Shown here in pieces: positions 1,946 to 12,713 of a DNA stretch of 12,713 nucleotides. The notes beneath the pieces are model-generated. The model saw only the letters and a list, made by a program, of their open reading frames with translations. It had not been told where the DNA came from and ran no database searches. The stretch is from Candidatus Desantisiibacteriota bacterium (GTDB lineage Bacteria; UBA9089; CG2-30-40-21), in the NCBI GenBank assembly GCA_016208205.1, contig JACQYP010000051.1:1-12713 (forward strand), given 5' to 3'. Each line of letters opens with the position of its first letter. Positions within the stretch are counted from its first letter, which is position 1. The position numbers and the translations under genes are program-made.

Positions 1946-2665
1946 TCACACCCTGCTATCCAGATTAAACACCTGCCCCGAGATACTGGTCATCTGCGTG
2001 AGATTGACCACAAAACAAGCAACCTCATCCAAACTTGAAAGCTTGTGCAAAACACTTATCTTTGCAGCTTGATCCCTTGCTCTGTCAGCAGACATACCCA
2101 TATCAGTCAAGAGATACCCTGGTAAGACAGTATTCACCCTGATATTATATTCTCCAAGCTCTTTAGCTGCGGACATTGATAGCCCCAGTATGCCTGCCTT
2201 TGACGCCGCATAGGCTGCCTGACCAACTTGTCCATGCACACCGGAAATAGATGAAATATTAATGATATGTCCCTCGCCCTGTTTGACCATTATCTCAGAT
2301 ACTGCCCTTATACAGGTGAAGATGCCGGATAGATTTGTTTTAATGATTTTTTCCCACACATGATTTGAGGTTTTTACCAGAAGGGAATCAGATACAACAC
2401 CAGCGTTATTTACCAGTACATCTATCCTGCCCCATAATGAGAGTACCGTATCTACCATAGACCTTACCTGGTCCGGCTTTGACACATCAGCAGGGATTGC
2501 TACGGCATCTCGTCCATTTTCTCTCAGAGCTTGCACCAAATCCTCTGCCTTGTCCTTGCTTTCGTTATAATTAACTGCCACAGCAAACCCTTTATCACTA
2601 AAGTATTGAGCAAGCCTTGCCCCAAGCCCCCTTGATGCACCTGTAATAATTACTACCCTATTCAT
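1946..2665 (-). CDS. SDR-family NAD(P)-dependent reductase, FabG-like 3-oxoacyl-ACP reductase (239 aa)
   Basis: This is a classical short-chain dehydrogenase, most like FabG, which reduces 3-oxoacyl-ACP in the fatty-acid elongation cycle. Visible motifs are the cofactor loop TGASRGLG (8-15), NNAG (86-89), N111, S139, and Y152-x3-K156 (YAASK), so the catalytic tetrad is complete. The protein ends in 'GQVFNLDSRV' rather than the usual FabG ending N-x-D-G-G. This suggests a specialised paralogue rather than the main housekeeping FabG. Its ATG (2665-2663) lies inside the last codons of bioB and overlaps them by 8 bases, with no clear Shine-Dalgarno of its own, so it is probably translationally coupled to bioB. 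The pairing hints at acyl-ACP reduction in making the pimeloyl precursor of biotin, but this is inference from context. Confidence 0.88.
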   Translation of the reverse strand: MNRVVIITGASRGLGARLAQYFSDKGFAVAVNYNESKDKAEDLVQALRENGRDAVAIPADVSKPDQVRSMVDTVLSLWGRIDVLVNNAGVVSDSLLVKTSNHVWEKIIKTNLSGIFTCIRAVSEIMVKQGEGHIINISSISGVHGQVGQAAYAASKAGILGLSMSAAKELGEYNIRVNTVLPGYLLTDMGMSADRARDQAAKISVLHKLSSLDEVACFVVNLTQMTSISGQVFNLDSRV

Positions 2666-3629
2666 CTACTGTTAATTCAAGGTCTTTTATAATCTGCAGA
2701 TTTTCCTCTGGCGGTCTTCCTTGAGTAGTCAGATAATTCCCAATCATTATCCCGCTAGCTCCAGCATAATAGATCCAACTCTGAAGATCCCTTAAGACTA
2801 TCTCCCGTCCCCCGCCTATCCGTATCTCCTGTTTTGGATGAATAAGCCGAAAGATAGCAATTATTCTCAAGGCTTCAAGTGGTGATAAAAGCTTATTCTC
2901 ACCAAACGGTGTACCGACAATAGGGTTTAAGAAATTTATCGGAATAGAGGTAACACCCAATTCCCTTAAGGCTATGGCTAATTGCACCCTGTCATCCCAT
3001 GTTTCTCCAAGCCCGAATATTCCGCCTGAACAGACCTCAAACCCTGTATCCTTAGCAATCTTTATTGTACTTATTCGTTCTGCATAGCTATGGGTAGTAC
3101 AAATATTAGGGAAGAATTTTTCTGAGGTTTCAAGATTATGGTGATATCGTTTTAGACCTGCTTCTTTAAGCCTGTCTGCATAGTCTATGGTTAATTTGCC
3201 AAGAGATGCACAGGGAAGGACATCACTCACCCGAGTCAACCGTTTAATGGCTCTGCAAACCTTATCCAATTCTTCATCCAAAAGCCTTCGTCCACTGGTC
3301 ACTATCCCAAACCTTTTAGCCTTAATCTTACCAGCATAATGCCCGATTTCTAATATCCTTTCTTCCTCAACAAGTGGATAACTTTGAACAACCGTTGAGT
3401 AATGCGATGATTGAGCACAAAACTTACAATCCTCTGGACACCTGCCACTCTTGGCATTAATTATTGTACAGGTATCTATCTTATCCTTCCTGAACTTGCC
3501 TCTCACAGCATTTGCCCAAAAAAGGAGTTCATAGAGTGGTGCCTTGACTAAAGAAATGGCTTCCTTGTCCGTAATATCCTTTCCGCTTAGAGCAGTTTGT
3601 CCTATATTGGTCATCTTTTCATTCAGCAT
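2658..3629 (-). CDS. bioB: Biotin synthase, radical SAM (323 aa)
   Basis: BioB inserts sulfur into dethiobiotin to make biotin. The radical-SAM cluster ligands are C64, C68 and C71 in GRCPEDCKFC. C140 (LPCASLG), C200 (VCSGGI) and R270 (EIRIGGGRE) match three ligands of the E. coli auxiliary cluster. The fourth, E. coli C97, is Gly here (G108 in RFGIVTSG), and there is an additional C177 in 'NICTTHSY'. That pattern is the one I associate with BioB of strict anaerobes, sometimes called type II, in which the auxiliary cluster is a four-iron type. This is family knowledge, not shown here. I chose the ATG at 3629-3627 because AAGGAGGG lies just upstream. The frame extends 15 codons further without a ribosome site. 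A TATAAT hexamer is at 3808-3803 on the minus strand, without a convincing -35. No other bio genes are in the window except perhaps the overlapping SDR. Confidence 0.96.
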   Translation of the reverse strand: MLNEKMTNIGQTALSGKDITDKEAISLVKAPLYELLFWANAVRGKFRKDKIDTCTIINAKSGRCPEDCKFCAQSSHYSTVVQSYPLVEEERILEIGHYAGKIKAKRFGIVTSGRRLLDEELDKVCRAIKRLTRVSDVLPCASLGKLTIDYADRLKEAGLKRYHHNLETSEKFFPNICTTHSYAERISTIKIAKDTGFEVCSGGIFGLGETWDDRVQLAIALRELGVTSIPINFLNPIVGTPFGENKLLSPLEALRIIAIFRLIHPKQEIRIGGGREIVLRDLQSWIYYAGASGIMIGNYLTTQGRPPEENLQIIKDLELTVDE

Positions 3630-3684
3630 ATATTCCCTCCTTATTTGCTTTATTTGTAAGCATTTAACTATCACTCGATGTTTT

Positions 3685-3764
3685 TGGAATGCGGTAGCTT
3701 ACTTGCTGCCGCTTTTAACTAAGGCACAAGAGAAAAGCGAAAGCAAGTAAGCTTTCGCATTCCA
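3685..3764. repeat. MITE-like composite element, copy 2
   Basis: The arms TGGAATGCGGTAGCTTACTT (from 3685) and the inverted AAGTAAGCTTTCGCATTCCA (to 3764) match in 21 of 23 positions over the full arm. Each arm folds as its own hairpin around the same loop as copy 1: GCGGTAGC (3691-3698) with GCTGCCGC (3705-3712), loop TTACTT, one T.G wobble; and GCGAAAGC (3737-3744) with GCTTTCGC (3751-3758), loop AAGTAA, perfect. It lies upstream of bioB. Confidence 0.75.
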
Positions 3765-3871
3765 TATCACCTATTATCATTCCCCAAGCATTATCATCTT
3801 GCATTATATTGGAGATATTCCCAGATTTTTTATACCTCTTGAAAAACTTGAACATCGAATATCAACTAATT

Positions 3872-3940
3872 CAGGCTGTTAGGCTGTAGGCTGTCAGGCT
3901 GTAGGTTCGGAAGTATCCCCTTGCCTTTATACCTACAGCC
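3872..3940. repeat. GGCTGT tandem repeat ending in a 10-bp inverted repeat, downstream of cobU
   Basis: GGCTGT recurs four times (from 3874, 3882, 3889 and 3897) as 'AGGCTGTTAGGCTGTAGG'-type units. The last unit, GGCTGTAGGT (3897-3906), is the exact reverse complement of ACCTACAGCC (3931-3940). The same units occur at about 7365-7388. Placed directly after the cobU stop codon on the minus strand it could act as an mRNA 3' structure, but there is no clear T-run for an intrinsic terminator. Confidence 0.6.
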
Positions 3941-3963
3941 TATTCACCTTCAGCATAGATGAA

Positions 3964-4473
3964 TTACTTTATCCTTACCGGTATCCCGGCAATAACAGTA
4001 TACACCTCTTCTGCTGCACTACAAATAAGTTGATTTGTCTCTCCCAGAATATCAGTAAACATCCTTGCCAATTTATTGGGAGAGATACCAGAAAGCCCAA
4101 CCTCATTTGAGACAACAATAACATCATTGTTTATTCCCCTTAAAACATCAACTAATTCCCCTACCCTTTGGCAAATATCCTCATACCCTTTTCCATCTAA
4201 CAATAGGTTTGATACCCAAAAGGTCAGACATTCTATCAATATGACACTATTATTACGAATAGTTGGCAAAACCTTAGCCACATCCCTTGGCTCTTCAATC
4301 ACCAACCAGTCTCTTGGTCGTGAAGCCTTGTGTTTTTCTACCCTTTCCATGGTCTCATCGTCCAATGGAACACAGGTAGCAATATAAACCACCCCTTTAT
4401 TCTTTTCCATAGCCATCTGACAGGCAAATCTACTCTTTCCGGAGCGGATGCCGCCGATGATAAAGGTAATCAA
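3964..4473 (-). CDS. cobU: Adenosylcobinamide kinase / adenosylcobinamide-phosphate guanylyltransferase (169 aa)
   Basis: CobU phosphorylates adenosylcobinamide and then transfers GMP to give adenosyl-GDP-cobinamide, in the nucleotide-loop assembly stage of cobalamin synthesis or salvage. Motifs are the P-loop GGIRSGKS (7-14), 'YIATCVPLDDETMERVEKH' (30-48) with H48 the expected GMP-accepting His, RPRDW after it, and 'VSNEVGLSGISP' in the second half. Length is normal. The start is a TTG (4473-4471), supported by GGAGG (4485-4481) with a 7-base spacer. There is no in-frame ATG nearby. It follows the PHP gene after only 14 bases. No other cobalamin genes are in the window and I see no cobalamin riboswitch. 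Confidence 0.95.
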   Translation of the reverse strand: MITFIIGGIRSGKSRFACQMAMEKNKGVVYIATCVPLDDETMERVEKHKASRPRDWLVIEEPRDVAKVLPTIRNNSVILIECLTFWVSNLLLDGKGYEDICQRVGELVDVLRGINNDVIVVSNEVGLSGISPNKLARMFTDILGETNQLICSAAEEVYTVIAGIPVRIK

Positions 4474-7343: not shown

Positions 7344-7361
7344 TCCCTGTGAATACAGGGA
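7344..7361. repeat. Perfect 7-bp hairpin, GAAT loop
   Basis: TCCCTGT (7344-7350) and ACAGGGA (7355-7361) around GAAT. It is followed by GGCTGTTAG-type units shared with 3872-3905. Confidence 0.6.
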
Positions 7362-7575: not shown

Positions 7576-9978
7576 CTATCTTACAATCCCTATCTTGCCG
7601 GTTTTGACACCTTTGGAGCATATCAGCCGATAAAAGTAGATACCAGAGGCAACCCTTTCTCCATTATCGTTTGTTGTGTCCCATCGAGCAATCATTGAAC
7701 CGCCAGCCGTTAACTCTGTCCCTTCTATTTTCCGTACCATCTCTCCTGAAATGTTATAGATATAAACCATGGCATCCTTGCCTGTCGGGATATTGGCTAT
7801 GGTTACCATATGCTGTCTAACACATGGATTGGGATAACAGATGATATTGTCTATGCTTGATGCTATGAGACTAACGGTTAAATAAATAGTATCTGTGCAG
7901 GTAGCAGCGTTATCGTTTATGGTAAGGGTAAACCTTATTTTGTGTTCATAAGGGCAATTGGATGTAATCATGAAACCAAATGGTTGGTTGGTATTGTCAA
8001 CTAACCCGCCTGATAACAGGGCATCAAGGGTGACGGTTTTGGTGGTAATAATTACATATAGGTCATCAGTGCTCAATTCCACACTCAGGCTGCCGTAATC
8101 ATTGTCCCGGAAGTTTTTCAGGGTGATAATCAGTGGTAATTGTTGTCCCGGGGCAACTATTCCATCGACATTACCCTGAATGACATGATACAATGCATGG
8201 ATACCCGTTGGCATTGGCAGAGCCATTTCAGGGTCACCGAGAAGATTAAGGCAGTATTGTACCCAGCGATATGGTGTATCTGTGTTACACTCAGGAACAA
8301 AGGTAAGCTTGCTCATTGCCAGTGCCTCACCGATGTGCGAATACCCCTCTCGTAATGCTGCCCTGAAAAATTCTATTTGATACTCGCCACTGTAAAACAT
8401 GGGGCTTGTCTCATCATACAGACCATATCTTGAATTGCCGATAAATGCAGCTGCCCCACCATCTTTATCCATGACCATTTGTTCACCAATGCAATCTGTG
8501 TAATCAAATGCCCCGGCATAGCATCCAATGGTATTAAAGATAAATGGATTGGGATTGGATAAACCACGAATATCGTAATTGTAGAGATAGCTATTTCCAG
8601 CTTGAATGCAGCTATTATTGGCATGACCGGCATGAGCAACCAACCCAACACTATCATTTAGTCCATTCATAATGCTGTCTCTATCTGCACCCTCGCTACC
8701 ATAATAACGAGATACATCATACTCACCTGGTGTAATCTCATCAATTGCCTGCATGATCAATTTGCCGTCATTTAATCTATCAAACTCACACCCGATCAAC
8801 ATCTCATTGTATTGGGAGCTGCCCGTAGCAGAGCCAAACCTGAGTACCTTTGCCACAAAATCTTCTGCCTCGCAGGCAATATTAACCGGTGCCCTTCCCA
8901 CGAACACCTCAGGCAGCATATCCACCCTATCCTCAACCTCTCCATAGATACCATCCTTATCATAGTCCCAATCACCATCAAGGCAGGCATAGTACATATC
9001 ACAGGGGATGTTATAATCAAAGAATGATTCATCATCCAATGTTCCTCCCTCAACCCAGGCATAGACACCACGGTATGGCACTATCCCTGTATCTCCACCA
9101 AGCAAAAGGTATGTTGGCTGATAATCCTTGATGTAGTTTCTGATCCTTTCCTGATGATCTCTGCCCGATTCATGGCTGTATATCCATGAGGTAAAGGTAA
9201 TAGTCCCCTCAAACCCTTTGCTTATCTTTGAGTTAAGTAAGGTTTGGAAGGCAGGGGCAAGGGTTTCATCAGTTACAATCAGGTATCTTTTTATCGTTGG
9301 AGCAGAACTATATCCGGGAATCAGCTCCGGGTTTATCACTAATTTTTGAAGTGCTCCAGGGTTTGGACACCTGCCGCTGACAGAGATATCCTGAACTTGC
9401 CTTAGTTTAAGAGTAAACTCAACCTGTTTAATCCAAGTCAACTCACCTGCTTGAGCATCATACCTTGCCCCGGATACTTGCATACATGCCAGATTAAACC
9501 CTCCCCATTGCTGGATGGATTCAAGATGGACTACTTGCTCGGGCAGCGTAGCACAGACATTCTTGTCTGTGTCTGTTGCAAGTTGGATGGATTCAAGTCG
9601 TACGGCTTGTTCTGTCAGGGGAAAAGACAGACAACTACAGTGGGTTGTCCCTACAGGCAGTGGCGGAGAAACGGATTTAAGGAGATATTTGCCGGCTAAC
9701 TTTTCCTGCTGAATAGATGTTATCTCTATCCTATCTACCTCAGTGCATGGAGGCAAGAGCACGAAGAATGCTTTTATCGGCAGCATGGGCATACCAACCT
9801 TAGATGACACGGCATAACCATCTGCCCGAACAATCGAATATCCATCCTCAGCAGTGGTAATTGAAAGCGGAGCAATCTCTATTGTCAAAGATAAGACCTG
9901 CGGCAATGTTGCAGCAAAAAGATGTTGTGAACCTTGAGTCAAGATAAGTAATATGAGAATAAAAATAATCCTTTTCAC
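7576..9978 (-). CDS. Secreted C25 (gingipain-like) cysteine peptidase with FlgD/T9SS-like C-terminus (800 aa)
   Basis: The N-terminus MKRIIFILILLILTQG... to about residue 23 is a signal peptide. Residues about 25-220 resemble the C25 propeptide. The catalytic domain spans about 230-590: 'YLLLGGDTGIVPYRGVYAW' (290-308), a calcium-loop-like LDGDWDYDKDG (333-343), FVGRAPV, H452 in HAGHANNS as the likely catalytic His, C486 in NTIGCYAGAFD as the likely catalytic Cys, GGAAAFIGNSRYG and NLLGDPEMALP. An Ig-like segment (about 600-705) and a C-terminal domain (about 712-800: 'YPNPC', 'IYNISGEMVR', WDTTNDNGERVASGIYFYRL) follow, as in FlgD-like or type IX sorting domains. It should be exported to the periplasm and perhaps the cell surface. 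The start is GTG with AGGAG upstream. Propeptide residues about 107-156 contain an imperfect 24-residue duplication built on palindromic repeats. It begins 22 bases after the DprA-like gene. Confidence 0.9.
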   Translation of the reverse strand: MKRIIFILILLILTQGSQHLFAATLPQVLSLTIEIAPLSITTAEDGYSIVRADGYAVSSKVGMPMLPIKAFFVLLPPCTEVDRIEITSIQQEKLAGKYLLKSVSPPLPVGTTHCSCLSFPLTEQAVRLESIQLATDTDKNVCATLPEQVVHLESIQQWGGFNLACMQVSGARYDAQAGELTWIKQVEFTLKLRQVQDISVSGRCPNPGALQKLVINPELIPGYSSAPTIKRYLIVTDETLAPAFQTLLNSKISKGFEGTITFTSWIYSHESGRDHQERIRNYIKDYQPTYLLLGGDTGIVPYRGVYAWVEGGTLDDESFFDYNIPCDMYYACLDGDWDYDKDGIYGEVEDRVDMLPEVFVGRAPVNIACEAEDFVAKVLRFGSATGSSQYNEMLIGCEFDRLNDGKLIMQAIDEITPGEYDVSRYYGSEGADRDSIMNGLNDSVGLVAHAGHANNSCIQAGNSYLYNYDIRGLSNPNPFIFNTIGCYAGAFDYTDCIGEQMVMDKDGGAAAFIGNSRYGLYDETSPMFYSGEYQIEFFRAALREGYSHIGEALAMSKLTFVPECNTDTPYRWVQYCLNLLGDPEMALPMPTGIHALYHVIQGNVDGIVAPGQQLPLIITLKNFRDNDYGSLSVELSTDDLYVIITTKTVTLDALLSGGLVDNTNQPFGFMITSNCPYEHKIRFTLTINDNAATCTDTIYLTVSLIASSIDNIICYPNPCVRQHMVTIANIPTGKDAMVYIYNISGEMVRKIEGTELTAGGSMIARWDTTNDNGERVASGIYFYRLICSKGVKTGKIGIVR
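9511..9650. repeat. In-frame palindromes and 72-bp imperfect duplication inside the peptidase gene
   Basis: TGGATGGATTCAAG occurs at 9512-9525 and again 72 bases later at 9584-9597, giving LESIQ twice (residues 128-132 and 152-156). Between them lies a perfect 8-bp hairpin, CACAGACA (9552-9559) with TGTCTGTG (9564-9571). To the right is a 6-bp hairpin, GACAAC (9630-9635) with GTTGTC (9644-9649). All are read through in frame and add a stretch (CATLPEQ, THCSCLS) unlike the rest of the protein. Confidence 0.7.
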
Positions 9979-10000: not shown

Positions 10001-10483
10001 TCACAGAGGCACAGAAAATTGATGGATTGGTTTCTTCATCTCTAACCACTCTGAAATAAGGTTTTCAAGATTGCCGCCTTTTTGAGCATAGGCAATGAAT
10101 ATTTCATCTGCAAGTTCTGCCATTAATCGGTTTCTTATGTCAGCTGTCTCTGCGGTTACCTTTTCAACCTTTTTTTCAAATGGTGTGATGATTAACAATT
10201 GATTGTTGTCAAAAGCCTTTTTAATCTCAGGTTCAAGCCTTTTCTTAAATCCCCTTGCCAATGCAAGTATAACCGGCTGAGAGCCTTTTAAGAGATAGTG
10301 CAAGACATCTTTTTCTATCTTTGAATGAAAACCTGACATAATACAGTTGCCTTTTTCTCTCTGCTTGATTGCCCAGTCATAGGATTTGAGGACTATATCT
10401 GCTGTACATCTGCGAGAACAGAGAAATGCTGTTTTATGTAGTTTCAAAATATCTGTATTGCCTTGGGTGTGGTATGGTATCAT
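10001..10483 (-). CDS. DprA/SMF-like Rossmann-fold protein (160 aa)
   Basis: The protein looks like a stand-alone Rossmann domain related to DprA (SMF), the single-strand DNA-binding protein of transformation. Matching segments are the first strand 'KTAFLCSRRC' (17-26), 'CIMSGFHSKIEKDVLHYLL' (47-65) like the 'SGxARGID' nucleotide-loop region, 'PVILALARG' (70-78), 'QLLIITPF' (95-102), and RNRLMAELADEIFIAYA (117-133) like the DprA 'RNRIIAxLSDxVLVVEA' motif, followed by KGGN. It is about half the size of full DprA and lacks the other DprA domains. The ATG overlaps the yhcG-like stop by one base (TAATG), so the two are probably co-translated. The last codons (SVPL, stop) fall in a 'CACAGAGGCACAGA' dispersed repeat. 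Function is not known to me. DNA or nucleotide binding in a defence context is inference. Confidence 0.72.
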   Translation of the reverse strand: MIPYHTQGNTDILKLHKTAFLCSRRCTADIVLKSYDWAIKQREKGNCIMSGFHSKIEKDVLHYLLKGSQPVILALARGFKKRLEPEIKKAFDNNQLLIITPFEKKVEKVTAETADIRNRLMAELADEIFIAYAQKGGNLENLISEWLEMKKPIHQFSVPL

Positions 10484-11499
10484 TATTCCTCTTTATCTAA
10501 TTCTCTATCAATGCGGTATCTTTCCATGTCTTTTTTTACTTCACTGATTAACTGTTTTTCTGTTGGCAGATACAACTGATATTGACTCGTCAAAATCGTC
10601 TTGTTATCTTCCGGGAGGGCAAATTTAACCGCTGTATTATTTTTATCAGCACAAAGTAAAATTCCAATAGTCGGATTTTCTTTCGGTAACTTTTCAGTGC
10701 GGTCGTAGTAATTCACATACATTTGCAGCTGTCCTAAATCCTGATGTGTGAGTTTTTGTGTTTTGATTTCAATAACGACAAAACACTGTAGCAAGCGGTT
10801 GTAAAACACCATGTCCACAAAAAACTCATCATCTTCTAAAAGTATTCGCTTTTGTCTTGCCACAAAAGAAAAACCATTTCCCAATTCCAGTAAAAAGGTT
10901 TGAAGATGATTGATTATGGCAGTTTCGAGGTCTCTTTCATAGTATTTTGCTTTGCGTTCTAACCCAAGAAATTCTAACACCATTGGGTCTTTGATGATTT
11001 CCTGCGGTTCTTCGGGTATCTTTTCTTTGCGAGCTACAGATAAAACTGCTTCTTTGTCGTTGCTTAATAGCAATCGTTCATATAGACTTGAGTTTATCTG
11101 TCTCTCCAATTCCCTCGCGGTCCAGCTATTATTGACCGCTTCGAGCAAATAGTATTCTCTTTTATCCTGATTTCTAATGCGTAACAGAAGCCGATATTGT
11201 CCCCAGTTCAATTGCGAACGCAGTGCGTTCGCAATTGGATAAGTGCGATAAAATTGGCGGCTGATTTCCAGAATTCTTACTGAAAACCCGCTTCCGTATT
11301 CTGGTTCCAATTCTTTAGCCATGTTCTTGATAAGATAATCACCATAATCAGCTCGCTCTTTGCCATGCTGTTCTTCTTCAAATATACTTTTTCCAATATG
11401 CCAATACATAAGCACGCGTTGGAAATCCACACTTCGAACAGCTTGCTTTCGTGATTGAGCAATGATTTCTTTGATTTCAGATATAAATAATTTACGCAT
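10483..11499 (-). CDS. YhcG/DUF1016-family PD-(D/E)xK nuclease (338 aa)
   Basis: The N-terminal DUF1016 domain (about 1-160) is helical and likely DNA- or partner-binding, with 'YWHIGKSIFEEEQHG', 'YLIKNMAKELEPEYG' and LNWGQYRLLLRI. The C-terminal PD-(D/E)xK nuclease domain (about 175-320) shows D229 in FFVDMVFYNR, E244-x-K246 in VVIEIK, and 'GQLQMYVNYYD' after it, so the catalytic triad is intact. Length matches the family. Such proteins are common in restriction-modification and other defence islands, and several are suspected Holliday-junction-type or accessory nucleases. The frame can start at TTG 11502, but I prefer the ATG at 11499, seven bases after GAGGAG. The gene is coupled to the DprA-like gene by TAATG. 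A perfect 29-base palindrome (11209-11237) lies in the codons for residues 88-97. Confidence 0.93.
   Translation of the reverse strand: MRKLFISEIKEIIAQSRKQAVRSVDFQRVLMYWHIGKSIFEEEQHGKERADYGDYLIKNMAKELEPEYGSGFSVRILEISRQFYRTYPIANALRSQLNWGQYRLLLRIRNQDKREYYLLEAVNNSWTARELERQINSSLYERLLLSNDKEAVLSVARKEKIPEEPQEIIKDPMVLEFLGLERKAKYYERDLETAIINHLQTFLLELGNGFSFVARQKRILLEDDEFFVDMVFYNRLLQCFVVIEIKTQKLTHQDLGQLQMYVNYYDRTEKLPKENPTIGILLCADKNNTAVKFALPEDNKTILTSQYQLYLPTEKQLISEVKKDMERYRIDRELDKEE
11209..11237. repeat. Perfect 14-bp-arm palindrome inside the YhcG-like gene
   Basis: CAATTGCGAACGCA (11209-11222), a single G, and TGCGTTCGCAATTG (11224-11237). It encodes about PIANALRSQL, which fits the family alignment as I remember it without an obvious insertion. 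Either chance codon choice or a repeat has been accommodated here. Confidence 0.7.
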
Positions 11500-11546
11500 C
11501 AATATTCTCCTCTTTTATTTATTCCCCGTTCTCTCCAGCTTTCCAG

Positions 11547-11617
11547 AGGGTGGGTTTGGAACCCATCCCTACCATCGTGGATGAAACCGTAGGGGCAGGT
11601 TCTAAACCTGCCCCTAC
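11547..11617. repeat. REP-type palindromes downstream of the RAYT gene
   Basis: Unit 1 is GTAGGGGCAGGTT (11589-11601), CTA, AACCTGCCCCTAC (11605-11617), a perfect 13-bp stem. Unit 2 at 11547-11573 is built on GGGTTTGGAACCC with imperfect outer arms. The core GGGGCAGGTT/AACCTGCCCC is the same as in the array inside the RAYT gene (12068-12151). Placement beside a RAYT gene fits REP sequences that RAYTs are known to process. Both units interrupt the methyltransferase-derived segment. Confidence 0.8.
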
Positions 11618-11666
11618 CGGGCGAGAAGACAGTCGATTTGATCGATGATGGGTTTGGATTTTATTT
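11574..11666 (-). pseudogene. Decayed second copy of the methyltransferase 3' end, split by a REP
   Basis: On the minus strand 11666-11619 reads KSKPIIDQIDCLLAR, nearly the KSKPIIDQIDSLLAQ of the intact gene (12463-12418). On the + strand about 40 of 46 bases match by eye. After the REP (11589-11617) the match resumes: 11574-11592 ATCGTGGATGAAACCGTAG against CTCGTGGGTGAAACCGTAG at 12395-12413. The RAYT stop codon (11663-11661) lies within this segment. It has no start and cannot be a working gene. Confidence 0.8.
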
Positions 11667-12320
11667 GACACCACCAATTTCTGTCATTCTGAATTCATTG
11701 ATTTCCCGGTTGATATGGTTTTCAGAATCGGAATCCCAATTCATTGGATTTTCGCGAATATATTTACGAATAAGAAATAACGATTTTTCGTCACGAATAA
11801 TGTGTTCATAATAATTGCGTTGCCACACAGAAATGCCCGGAGAATTGCGCGCTGTATTAATGCGTTTTGCGGAAAATGTTTTGAATTGACGAATAATTTC
11901 CGACAATGCAATTTGTTTCATCCTCTGTTCCATATCCGCCCCGATAATTTGAATAATTCCATGAACATGATTTGGCATGATAATAAATTCATCCAATACA
12001 ATACCAACAATATGATTTGTTAAATCATTCCATGTAAATTGGACAATATTGCCGTATTGGTTTAATTCCGTAGGGGCAGGTTCCAAACCTGCCCTCATAT
12101 CAGGTTCCAAACCTGCCAGAAGAGGGGCGGGTTTGGAACCCGCCCCTACGGGAAAATATTTGAGATCAATAGGTGTGATGGTCGATGTCGTAATGTCGCC
12201 GAACAATCGTTGTGTCTGATCGTGAATACAAATCGTCACGAAATAATACCCCGGCTGCGAATAATCATATCCGTGCAAACGGATGGAATGGCGATGGTGA
12301 ATTTCCGGATTATATTTCAT
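11661..12320 (-). CDS. REP-associated tyrosine transposase (RAYT, Y1/HUH family, 219 aa)
   Basis: RAYTs are single-copy relatives of IS200/IS605 transposases that cut and join single-stranded REP palindromes. The opening 'HHRHSIRLHGYDYSQPGYYF' (8-27) and VTICIHDQTQRLFGDI are characteristic. The HUH pair is H118-V-H120 in MPNHVHGIIQI. Y170/Y171 in WQRNYYEHIIRD is the expected nucleophile region, followed by KYIRENPMNW. Residues about 59-84 (GAGSKPAP, AGLEPDMRAGLEPAPT) are an insertion encoded by three REP-like palindromes, after which the normal fold resumes at LNQYGNIVQFTWNDL. The ATG overlaps the methyltransferase stop by 4 bases (ATGA), an unusual junction for a mobile gene. Just after its stop lies a degraded copy of the methyltransferase 3' end with further REPs. 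The catalytic residues look intact, so it could be active. Confidence 0.92.
   Translation of the reverse strand: MKYNPEIHHRHSIRLHGYDYSQPGYYFVTICIHDQTQRLFGDITTSTITPIDLKYFPVGAGSKPAPLLAGLEPDMRAGLEPAPTELNQYGNIVQFTWNDLTNHIVGIVLDEFIIMPNHVHGIIQIIGADMEQRMKQIALSEIIRQFKTFSAKRINTARNSPGISVWQRNYYEHIIRDEKSLFLIRKYIRENPMNWDSDSENHINREINEFRMTEIGGVK
12068..12151. repeat. REP-type palindrome array inside the RAYT gene, in frame
   Basis: There are three palindromes. GGGCAGGTT (12074-12082) pairs with AACCTGCCC (12086-12094). CAGGTT (12101-12106) pairs with AACCTG (12110-12115). GGGGCGGGTT (12124-12133) pairs with AACCCGCCCC (12137-12146). The outermost CCGTAGGGGC (12068-12077) also pairs with GCCCCTACGG (12142-12151), making a large nested inverted repeat. 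No stop codon is introduced. Confidence 0.85.
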
Positions 12321-12713
12321 TCTCCTTCCTCCCCACTGTCTAATTCTTTCCCCATGCGGTATTTGATGTCGTAGTTGATGATGAAATCCAACTCCTCGTG
12401 GGTGAAACCGTAGTGCTGGGCAAGGAGGGAGTCGATCTGGTCGATGATGGGTTTGGATTTATTTATAATGAATGATTGGGTTTCTGCTGTGCCCTTACCT
12501 CTTTGTTCCCGAACAAGTGGTTTGCTATTTATTTTAATGTTGTTAAGGTAATTTTCGCCTATTTCTTGAACAATTTTTGATTTGACAGTTACCTCAGGAA
12601 CATGAAAATTAGAGATATCTGATGGATTCAAGTCTCGAAGATTGGAGGTAATTGAATACCAATACCAATAAAAATCGGAGCTCAAACAAGCAATAATTGC
12701 TTTGGTTTCATTA
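12317..12713 (-). CDS. Adenine-specific DNA methyltransferase / type IIG-like R-M protein, C-terminal part (131 aa seen; continues past right edge)
   Basis: The frame is open from the window edge and ends TGA at 12317. Its last part, 'HYGFTHEELDFIINYDIKYR' then MGKEL, and the preceding 'NKSKPIIDQIDSLLAQ', form the C-terminal signature I know from large Eco57I-like N6-adenine methyltransferases and combined restriction-methylation proteins. 'IIACLSSDFYWYWYSI' with 'LRDLNPSDI' fits the end of the target-recognition region of the same family. The catalytic NPPY-type motif and any nuclease domain would lie outside the window. An apparent TTG start at 12685 is internal: the frame reads NETKAIIACL upstream of it, so the gene is truncated only by the window. 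Its stop overlaps the RAYT start. Confidence 0.82.
   Translation of the reverse strand, partial: NETKAIIACLSSDFYWYWYSITSNLRDLNPSDISNFHVPEVTVKSKIVQEIGENYLNNIKINSKPLVREQRGKGTAETQSFIINKSKPIIDQIDSLLAQHYGFTHEELDFIINYDIKYRMGKELDSGEEGE

Follow-up and report, generated by a model that had tools for sequence, protein, structure and literature searches.

We propose that the 3′ end of Eco57I-type (Type IIG) methyltransferase (MTase) genes, about 108 bp long, acts as a recombination joint for accessory genes, a reading to which we assign a probability of about 0.6. The proposal starts from a 12,713-nucleotide stretch of Candidatus Desantisiibacteriota DNA (contig JACQYP010000051.1, hereafter the window), in which a gene for a Y1 transposase resembling the repetitive extragenic palindrome (REP)-associated tyrosine transposases (RAYTs) lies between two copies of such an MTase end. 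Read along the minus strand, the order is the MTase end, the RAYT gene, a decayed MTase end with an internal REP, a second REP, a YhcG gene and a DprA-like gene. The MTase is represented by its C-terminal 131 codons (12317–12712), the remainder of the gene lying beyond the window, and contains the intact copy of a 36-codon conserved tail (SKPII...YRMG; 12350–12457, aligned with 1006–1113 of locus L001) that we regard as the putative joint. The displaced, decayed tail (11575–11661, minus strand) repeats the intact end in the same order and orientation in two blocks, 11619–11661 versus 12418–12460 (43 nt, 86% identity) and 11575–11592 versus 12396–12413 (18 nt, 94%); BLAST E values for the two blocks are 9e-11 and 7e-4 in L001, a locus arranged like the window. 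This confirms the preliminary description of the window in that the MTase 3′ end occurs twice in direct orientation with the RAYT gene between, and its decayed copy stands; the extent given for that copy, 11574–11666, does not, as only the two blocks can be aligned. The rest of the decayed end, roughly 50–85 bp, has been replaced by the second REP or is unrecognisable. Both gene overlaps noted earlier also hold: the sequence ATGA at 12317–12320 contains the MTase stop and the RAYT start, and the RAYT stop (11661–11663) shares one base with the decayed copy. The MTase fragment of the window itself has no Pfam match; we call it Eco57I-type, or Type IIG, because its full-length homologue in L002 (3–2636) matches the Eco57I model and the PADLOC Type IIG model, the latter with 708 bits.

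To place this arrangement among relatives, contigs were scanned with the 131 C-terminal MTase residues, which confirmed 486 relatives, of which the best 80 loci were kept. L001, assigned to Omnitrophota by its record title, carries the same RAYT insert at 96.5% nucleotide identity over 2.4 kb. L002, also Omnitrophota by title, shows 86–90% nucleotide identity to the window (88% in its MTase portion and 86% in that of YhcG) and has no RAYT gene; its YhcG open reading frame (ORF) begins 9 bases past the MTase stop, and the window sequence ahead of YhcG (11507–11527, minus strand), GGGGAATAAATAAAAGAGGAG, matches that junction (GGGAATGAATAAAAGAGGAG in L002). Because the L002 MTase runs straight into YhcG and the junctions match, sequence comparison identifies the RAYT gene as an insertion and puts the decayed copy at the site of the old MTase end, with an intact tail and the RAYT gene upstream of it. 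The preliminary description had suggested that a RAYT entered a restriction-modification locus and that relatives might show an empty site and the same MTase without a RAYT; both are found in L002, and L001 shows the same insert. It had also considered two tandem MTases reduced to one, which is not needed here, as L002 has a single MTase beside YhcG; tandem MTases do exist elsewhere (L107, L114, L115) and are a possible route for other loci. The repeat is MTase coding sequence, rather than a palindrome-linked sequence unrelated to methyltransferases, and orphan tail copies are also found away from MTases. We rejected the idea that the decayed copy is closer to the L002 tail than the intact copy is, since each differs from it at 3 of 43 positions.

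REPs lie within and next to the decayed copy. A perfect palindrome, GTAGGGGCAGGTT-CTA-AACCTGCCCCTAC, occupies 11589–11617 within the displaced tail, splitting it as previously described, and a second, imperfect REP (11547–11573) stands in place of the tail's end; folded as single-stranded DNA, 11540–11625 has a z score of −5.3. The core GGTTNNNAACC occurs five times in the window (0.14 expected by shuffling), always at the RAYT locus (11553, 11598, 12079, 12103 and 12130), and no core lies between the MTase and the RAYT gene. The site had been presented as a base-level record of REP insertion, which is true in part: the first REP is not a clean insert, as it replaces 4–5 bp relative to L002, and both REP junctions come with lost tail sequence. 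Neither is CCGTAG, which had been considered as a recurring REP target, a demonstrated one; it is part of the REP itself, also ending the copies at 12068 and 12151, and the coding strand of the MTase tail contains it as CTACGG, so that it is a short sequence common to both. Exact matches to the perfect REP pattern number one in the L001 genome and none in the L002 genome, both of which are draft bins.

The tail recurs in many other loci with different genes behind it. With a 59-residue tail as tblastn query, a second tail copy was found downstream in 12 of the 80 loci (L001, L013, L033, L035, L044, L052, L060, L062, L066, L076, L078 and L080); L002 gave a match to the C-terminal part of the tail alone, at the end of YhcG. 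Between the tails lie RAYT genes (L001, L078, L080), YhcG (L066 and, by eye, L052), a PIN gene (L076), an OLD-like AAA/TOPRIM gene (L044), HicA with others (L033), a nucleotidyltransferase (L060, L062) and genes without an assigned identity (L013, L035); the names given to ORFs of L052, L060/L062, L153, L164 and some others are provisional, several of them assigned by eye. Because the tails bracket YhcG, PIN, HicA, nucleotidyltransferase and OLD-like genes as well, the duplication pattern is not specific to RAYTs or REPs. L105 holds toxin–antitoxin type genes arrayed between tails, and in L013 the repeat is longer and nearly identical (98% over 298 bp, the searched stretch). Within the same loci plus the window, 11 of 67 ORFs that carry an MTase tail had a further copy of their 3′ end no more than 3 kb downstream, versus 2 of 207 other long ORFs (Fisher p = 5e-6; ORFs with less than 1500 bp downstream excluded); this comparison missed the REP-split pair of the window itself, one of the 11 MTase hits is the match at the end of YhcG in L002, and one of the 2 others is an antisense ORF in L013. 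Orphan tails follow a different type of MTase in L109 and L117 and stand before DarT-DarG in L149, where a stop-containing tail precedes this toxin–antitoxin pair (2490–4355) away from an Eco57I-type MTase. In the two Microcystis loci L060 and L062 the MTase, a gene pair that we take to be XisH/XisI-like and the first displaced tail are common, the loci differing thereafter, and L062 has a short further piece of MTase end near 7355 (CCGCATGGGGCGTGATAGC).

A tail profile was further run against genome samples named after the groups of their seed loci. Matches were found in 3 of 193 genomes from the phylum of G001, 13/244 from that of G005, 11/296 from that of G008, 27/251 from that of G006 and 17/247 from that of G012, and in 12/243 from the order of G391, 3/128 from the order of G001, 19/33 from the family of G004 and 2/12 from the genus of G005. 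Across the five phylum samples and the order of G391, 49 genomes had a tail match with an E value no higher than 1e-10 in a frame of 190 codons or more (the seeds and two genomes identical to known loci, G1040 to L033 and G1056 to L011, being excluded; some of the 49 may overlap with other fetched loci), and five of these (G313, G391, G1103, G1117 and G1153) carry a further tail within 3 kb downstream. On the 4.26-Mb contig of G391 the MTase is followed by three further tails with DUF559, PIN and HicA genes between or behind them, and in G313 a MazF-like (PemK) gene lies between tails. Two candidates were not counted as cases: G866 has a second MTase-like gene instead of a downstream copy, and G764 has two MTases 2.5 kb apart (L115). 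In Brocadia (the family of G004), the 38 listed tail places include 5 MTase ends (frame of at least 500).

We also compared 136 loci with one another to see where homology breaks. Tail pairs were used when they had 200 bp or more in common downstream and when both loci extended 600 bp upstream. Among the 38 resulting tail pairs, upstream homology ended inside the tail (−62 to +25 from the first tail codon) in 24, at 26–150 bp in 2, at 151–400 bp in none and beyond 400 bp, that is, collinear, in 12; the collinear group includes 4 pairs that come from identical contigs (L011/L159, L033/L141 twice, L016/L018). L131 and L138, for example, are 90% identical over 2.2 kb from within the tail onward and have different genes in front. 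L042 and L065 (the latter excluded from the count by the 600-bp rule) are 87% identical in the 400 bp that follow the tail and 60% identical ahead of it, where shuffled sequences give 53–62%. Fewer pairs show the opposite, a common upstream part with homology lost at the end of the tail (for example L105 versus L140, 96% over 636 bp). Tails are also common to otherwise unrelated MTases: between L001 and L030 (Planctomycetota by title), 102 of 108 bp (94%) agree in the tail, against 57% before and 55% after it in a comparison with the same shuffled range, and amino-acid identity across the 130 codons ahead of the tail is 35%.

Third-position G+C of the tail exceeded that expected from the codon use of its own gene in 51 of 59 MTases (mean +0.13), versus 17 of 57 for a 36-codon control around the NPPY motif (mean −0.05). 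In L002 it is 0.83 versus an expected 0.42 and tops all 45 windows of the gene; the tail is the window of highest G+C in only 9 of the 59 genes, so the shift is strong in few of them. Displaced copies differ from the resident tail with a pooled proportion of silent differences (pS) of 0.31 and of replacement differences (pN) of 0.10 over 17 comparisons (5 silent and 2 replacement differences in L001 alone), and mainly silent differences would be expected if the displaced copies had been real MTase ends. Among 69 copy rows, obtained with the last 59 residues as the sole query and including at least 4 that are really MTase ends (L114, L047, L145, L050), 48 begin at tail residue 15 or later, and the 5′ starts vary over some 25 codons. 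An ORF starts within −25 to +40 bases of the tail stop in 26 of the 69 copies versus 26 of 665 control positions, which were random positions rather than gene ends.

These observations are consistent with a simple route. Donor DNA carrying a similar MTase end and an accessory gene would pair with the resident MTase end; one crossover would fall in the conserved tail, and the other side would be joined within the resident tail or close to it, through a short homology or none, by homologous or homology-assisted illegitimate recombination. The product would be the MTase, the new gene, the displaced old MTase end and the original neighbour, which in the window would be the RAYT gene as newcomer and YhcG as original neighbour. 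REPs of the RAYT may later have invaded and partly replaced the displaced end, which would by then code for nothing needed any more, and repeated rounds would yield arrays. Because ORFs often start near the tail stop, a newcomer may be expressed at once, and the purine-rich end of the tail might aid translation of the next gene.

Several points weigh against this proposal. No recombination event has been observed, and every step from the pairing onward, like the order of events, is inferred. In the 43-bp comparison the two window tails differ from each other at 6 sites and from L002 at 3 each, and such a star points to no direction of exchange in the window and would also fit a local duplication. 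Because no other part of the gene is as well conserved as the tail, differential divergence can mimic a break where both loci hold MTases; moreover, the 38 pairs of the break analysis share loci and are not independent. The search covered tails only and would have overlooked displaced fragments of other parts of the gene. Recurrence is uneven, all five of the 49 genomes with a further tail being among the 11 from cyanobacterial groups; three of the five belong to the order of G391, which is one of these cases. Finally, codon identity at shared residues, compared in 2341 MTase pairs with less than 40% upstream identity, was 0.453 in the tail versus 0.390 upstream, a general excess that is real but small, and only 4 of the 2341 tails reached 0.8 (no upstream stretch did). 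The same small excess and the 4 pairs at 0.8 weaken the idea that tail identity is due to DNA-level constraint alone.

The strongest competing account holds that the MTase end was duplicated in place, or that a tandem MTase decayed to its tail, with no import through the tail. The near-identical repeat of L013, the tandem MTases mentioned above, the star-like tails of the window and the three tandem tail copies in L163 all fit it. Tails common to loci with unrelated flanks, copies that differ mainly at silent sites, and copies that start mostly at residue 15 or later, not anywhere along the gene, speak against it; on balance we consider it unlikely. The preliminary description had also suggested that the RAYT and its REPs might have duplicated part of the locus; in such an account the transposase would have inserted itself with REPs at the MTase end and caused the duplication. 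RAYT cargo is indeed repeated (in the window, L001, L078, L080 and five Brocadia-family ORFs, including L080), and the tail is in frame on 19 RAYTs. The bracketed genes in most loci are not RAYTs, however, known IS200/IS605 elements make no larger target duplications according to the passage on them in PMC2817692, and the scarcity of the perfect REP pattern in the L001 and L002 draft bins argues in the same direction, which makes this origin improbable. The earlier interpretation as a whole is thus partly supported.

About equally improbable is a site-specific recombinase that recognises tail DNA and moves true cassettes. The toxin–antitoxin arrays of L105 and the existence of breaks on both sides of the tail would suit such an enzyme, whereas the variable 5′ starts of displaced copies would not, and no candidate was noticed among the window ORFs, though no search was aimed at one. 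That the tail peptide is functional by itself (as a partner-docking site, for example) and has therefore been retained on other proteins would explain the low pN/pS and the in-frame tails on RAYTs in several places of their tree and on an oxidoreductase-like ORF (by eye) of L153; many copies, however, lie outside long ORFs or contain stops, and the window copy is out of frame with the RAYT gene and split by a REP, so we think this very unlikely. An assembly artefact, in which conserved-tail repeats joined unrelated contigs, could be suspected since many loci come from metagenome bins and a few tails, such as those of L146 and L154, are close to the end of their contig. Against it, the window and L001 agree, arrays also occur on long contigs (G391, 4.26 Mb; G313, 4.25 Mb; G1153, 5.7 Mb), and L060, the record of Microcystis aeruginosa NIES-4325, has an array as well; there is hardly any room left for this explanation.

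The RAYT gene of the window (11661–12320, minus strand; 219 amino acids) is assigned by a Y1 transposase domain (PF01797, 30.4 bits; cut-off 23) and by RAYT-annotated proteins among its relatives; it does not reach the NCBIfam equivalog NF047646 (57.7 bits versus a cut-off of 80, residues 109–193 only). An HVH motif lies at residues 118–120, and tyrosines 170/171 and 187 are candidate catalytic residues. The part matching NF047646 is preceded by a REP-encoded linker: three REP-like palindrome copies within the ORF (12068–12151, RAYT residues about 57–85) are translated in frame as a repeated peptide (VGAGSKPA, RAGLEPAPT), as are those at 1287–1443 of L001, which has more repeats than the window. 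REP-type peptides such as GAGSKPA or AGLEPAP occur in 95 of 120 related RAYT proteins (the best 120 of about 8000), and the passage on REPs in PMC3733652 already describes REPs inside ORFs. Relatives were taken as the best 120 of about 8000 proteins in each of three listings, and 13 of the 309 RAYT-type proteins so listed have a tail match at E 0.1 or better. Together with 6 from the loci, these give 19 tail-bearing RAYTs. The Brocadia tail places mentioned above also include five RAYT ORFs, 191–256 amino acids long, that carry the tail in frame. A quick tree was made of 85 rows, picked so as to include the tail-bearing proteins; on it the tail requires 7 changes, compared with a shuffled mean of 17.4, and at least 3 of the 7 are backed by starred branches. 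It is therefore probable that MTase tails were gained by RAYTs on several occasions and passed on by inheritance thereafter; if the MTase end is a joint, RAYTs ending in a methyltransferase tail, an odd protein class, would be explained as displacement products.

A second MTase tail family shows similar copies. Its 31-residue tail, of the VYELYGLTEEEIxIVE type, has matches in 21 of 201 genomes, with further downstream copies in G822 (L162; 87.5% over 152 bp), in G862 (L163; three copies 123–129 bp apart, then a Y1-type ORF at 20.4 bits, cut-off 23) and in G799 (L164; three copies), and with the order MTase, YhcG, tail, YhcG in L118.

Other features of these loci deserve mention. The YhcG gene of the window (DUF1016, nuclease type; 10483–11502, minus strand; PF06250 and PF17761) gave a match to the candidate system PDC-S02; its counterpart in L002 comes straight after the MTase. 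The next gene in the cluster is DprA-like (10001–10483, minus strand; PF02481), with a homologue at 4035–4502 of L002 and a PADLOC match to PsyrA (E 7e-11), and a DprA-like gene stands behind the last tail in many such clusters (for example L066, L080, L121, L123, L127, L130 and L137). Near the restriction cluster, 7576–9978 encodes an 800-amino-acid peptidase C25 (gingipain-type) protein whose C terminus resembles secretion signals (FlgD_ig, CHU_C, Por_Secre_tail, all below cut-off). Six loci of the Brocadia family (L080, L126, L129, L132, L134, L138) have the same small insertion, of the FI-PSAxLRTG-INYD type, at the same tail site, which is either a shared derived tail repeat or a hot spot for REP-like insertion. 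In L153, the oxidoreductase-like ORF (386–1039) ends in an MTase tail and is followed by an AlbA-like gene, and a 233-bp copy of this stretch lies on another contig of that genome (L154).

More tentatively, the Type IIG MTase 3′ end may perhaps be a portable joint across phyla, a cassette system without a dedicated attachment site or recombinase: a conserved, compositionally foreign end with the next gene close behind, which travels with toxin–antitoxin, nuclease and RAYT genes and whose displaced copies are fossils of defence-gene acquisition. If the 108-bp end is a joint at all, this would bear on the open question of how defence islands gather small toxin–antitoxin and nuclease-type genes beside restriction systems, and displaced tails would allow past acquisitions to be read from genomes, ordered by their decay and tested by recombination assay. 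A keyword search of open-licence texts found no paper on duplicated MTase 3′ ends that bracket accessory genes.

Several known systems resemble the proposed one. In integron gene-cassette arrays, small genes, often of toxin–antitoxin type, are separated by a repeated joint. The arrangement of L105 is similar, and PMC3031569 makes a passing comparison with superintegrons; unlike the integron joint, the tail is MTase coding sequence, its copies start at variable points rather than at a fixed attachment-site boundary, and no integrase was identified for the arrays, though none was searched for. With the REPtron, as far as the relevant passages of PMC2817692 and PMC3733652 describe it, the window shares a Y1 transposase gene with GTAG-type palindromes close by; it differs in that its REPs lie inside the RAYT ORF and downstream, with none between the MTase and the RAYT gene, and in that a search of the L001 draft genome with the exact pattern found no dispersed family. 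Orphan cdiA-CT/cdiI modules, in the account given by the passages of PMC4927057, arise when an incoming module pushes the old 3′ end downstream without changing its orientation; repeated events build arrays, and retained homology permits recombination. MTase 3′ fragments likewise lie downstream in the same orientation and are arrayed in some genomes. What is displaced in contact-dependent inhibition loci is a toxin domain with its immunity gene, whereas the displaced piece here is a short MTase tail, common to these enzymes and not known to have a separate role, and cargo and MTase are unrelated. Insertion with long and variable target duplication (Nobusato et al. 2000 and Furuta et al. 2010, compared here through the passages citing them in PMC3031569 and PMC1643837) likewise places an insert between long direct target repeats, with an empty site in a relative and a link to restriction-modification. 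There, by the citing passages, the restriction-modification genes are the insert, and the original papers may contain cases with an MTase as target; here the MTase end is the target and RAYT, toxin–antitoxin and nuclease-type genes are the cargo. By analogy with what these passages report, long target duplication appears nearest in form and displaced cdiA ends appear nearest in logic, and the difference from the known kinds is that the same MTase end serves again and again, across several phyla, as the target for unrelated cargo.

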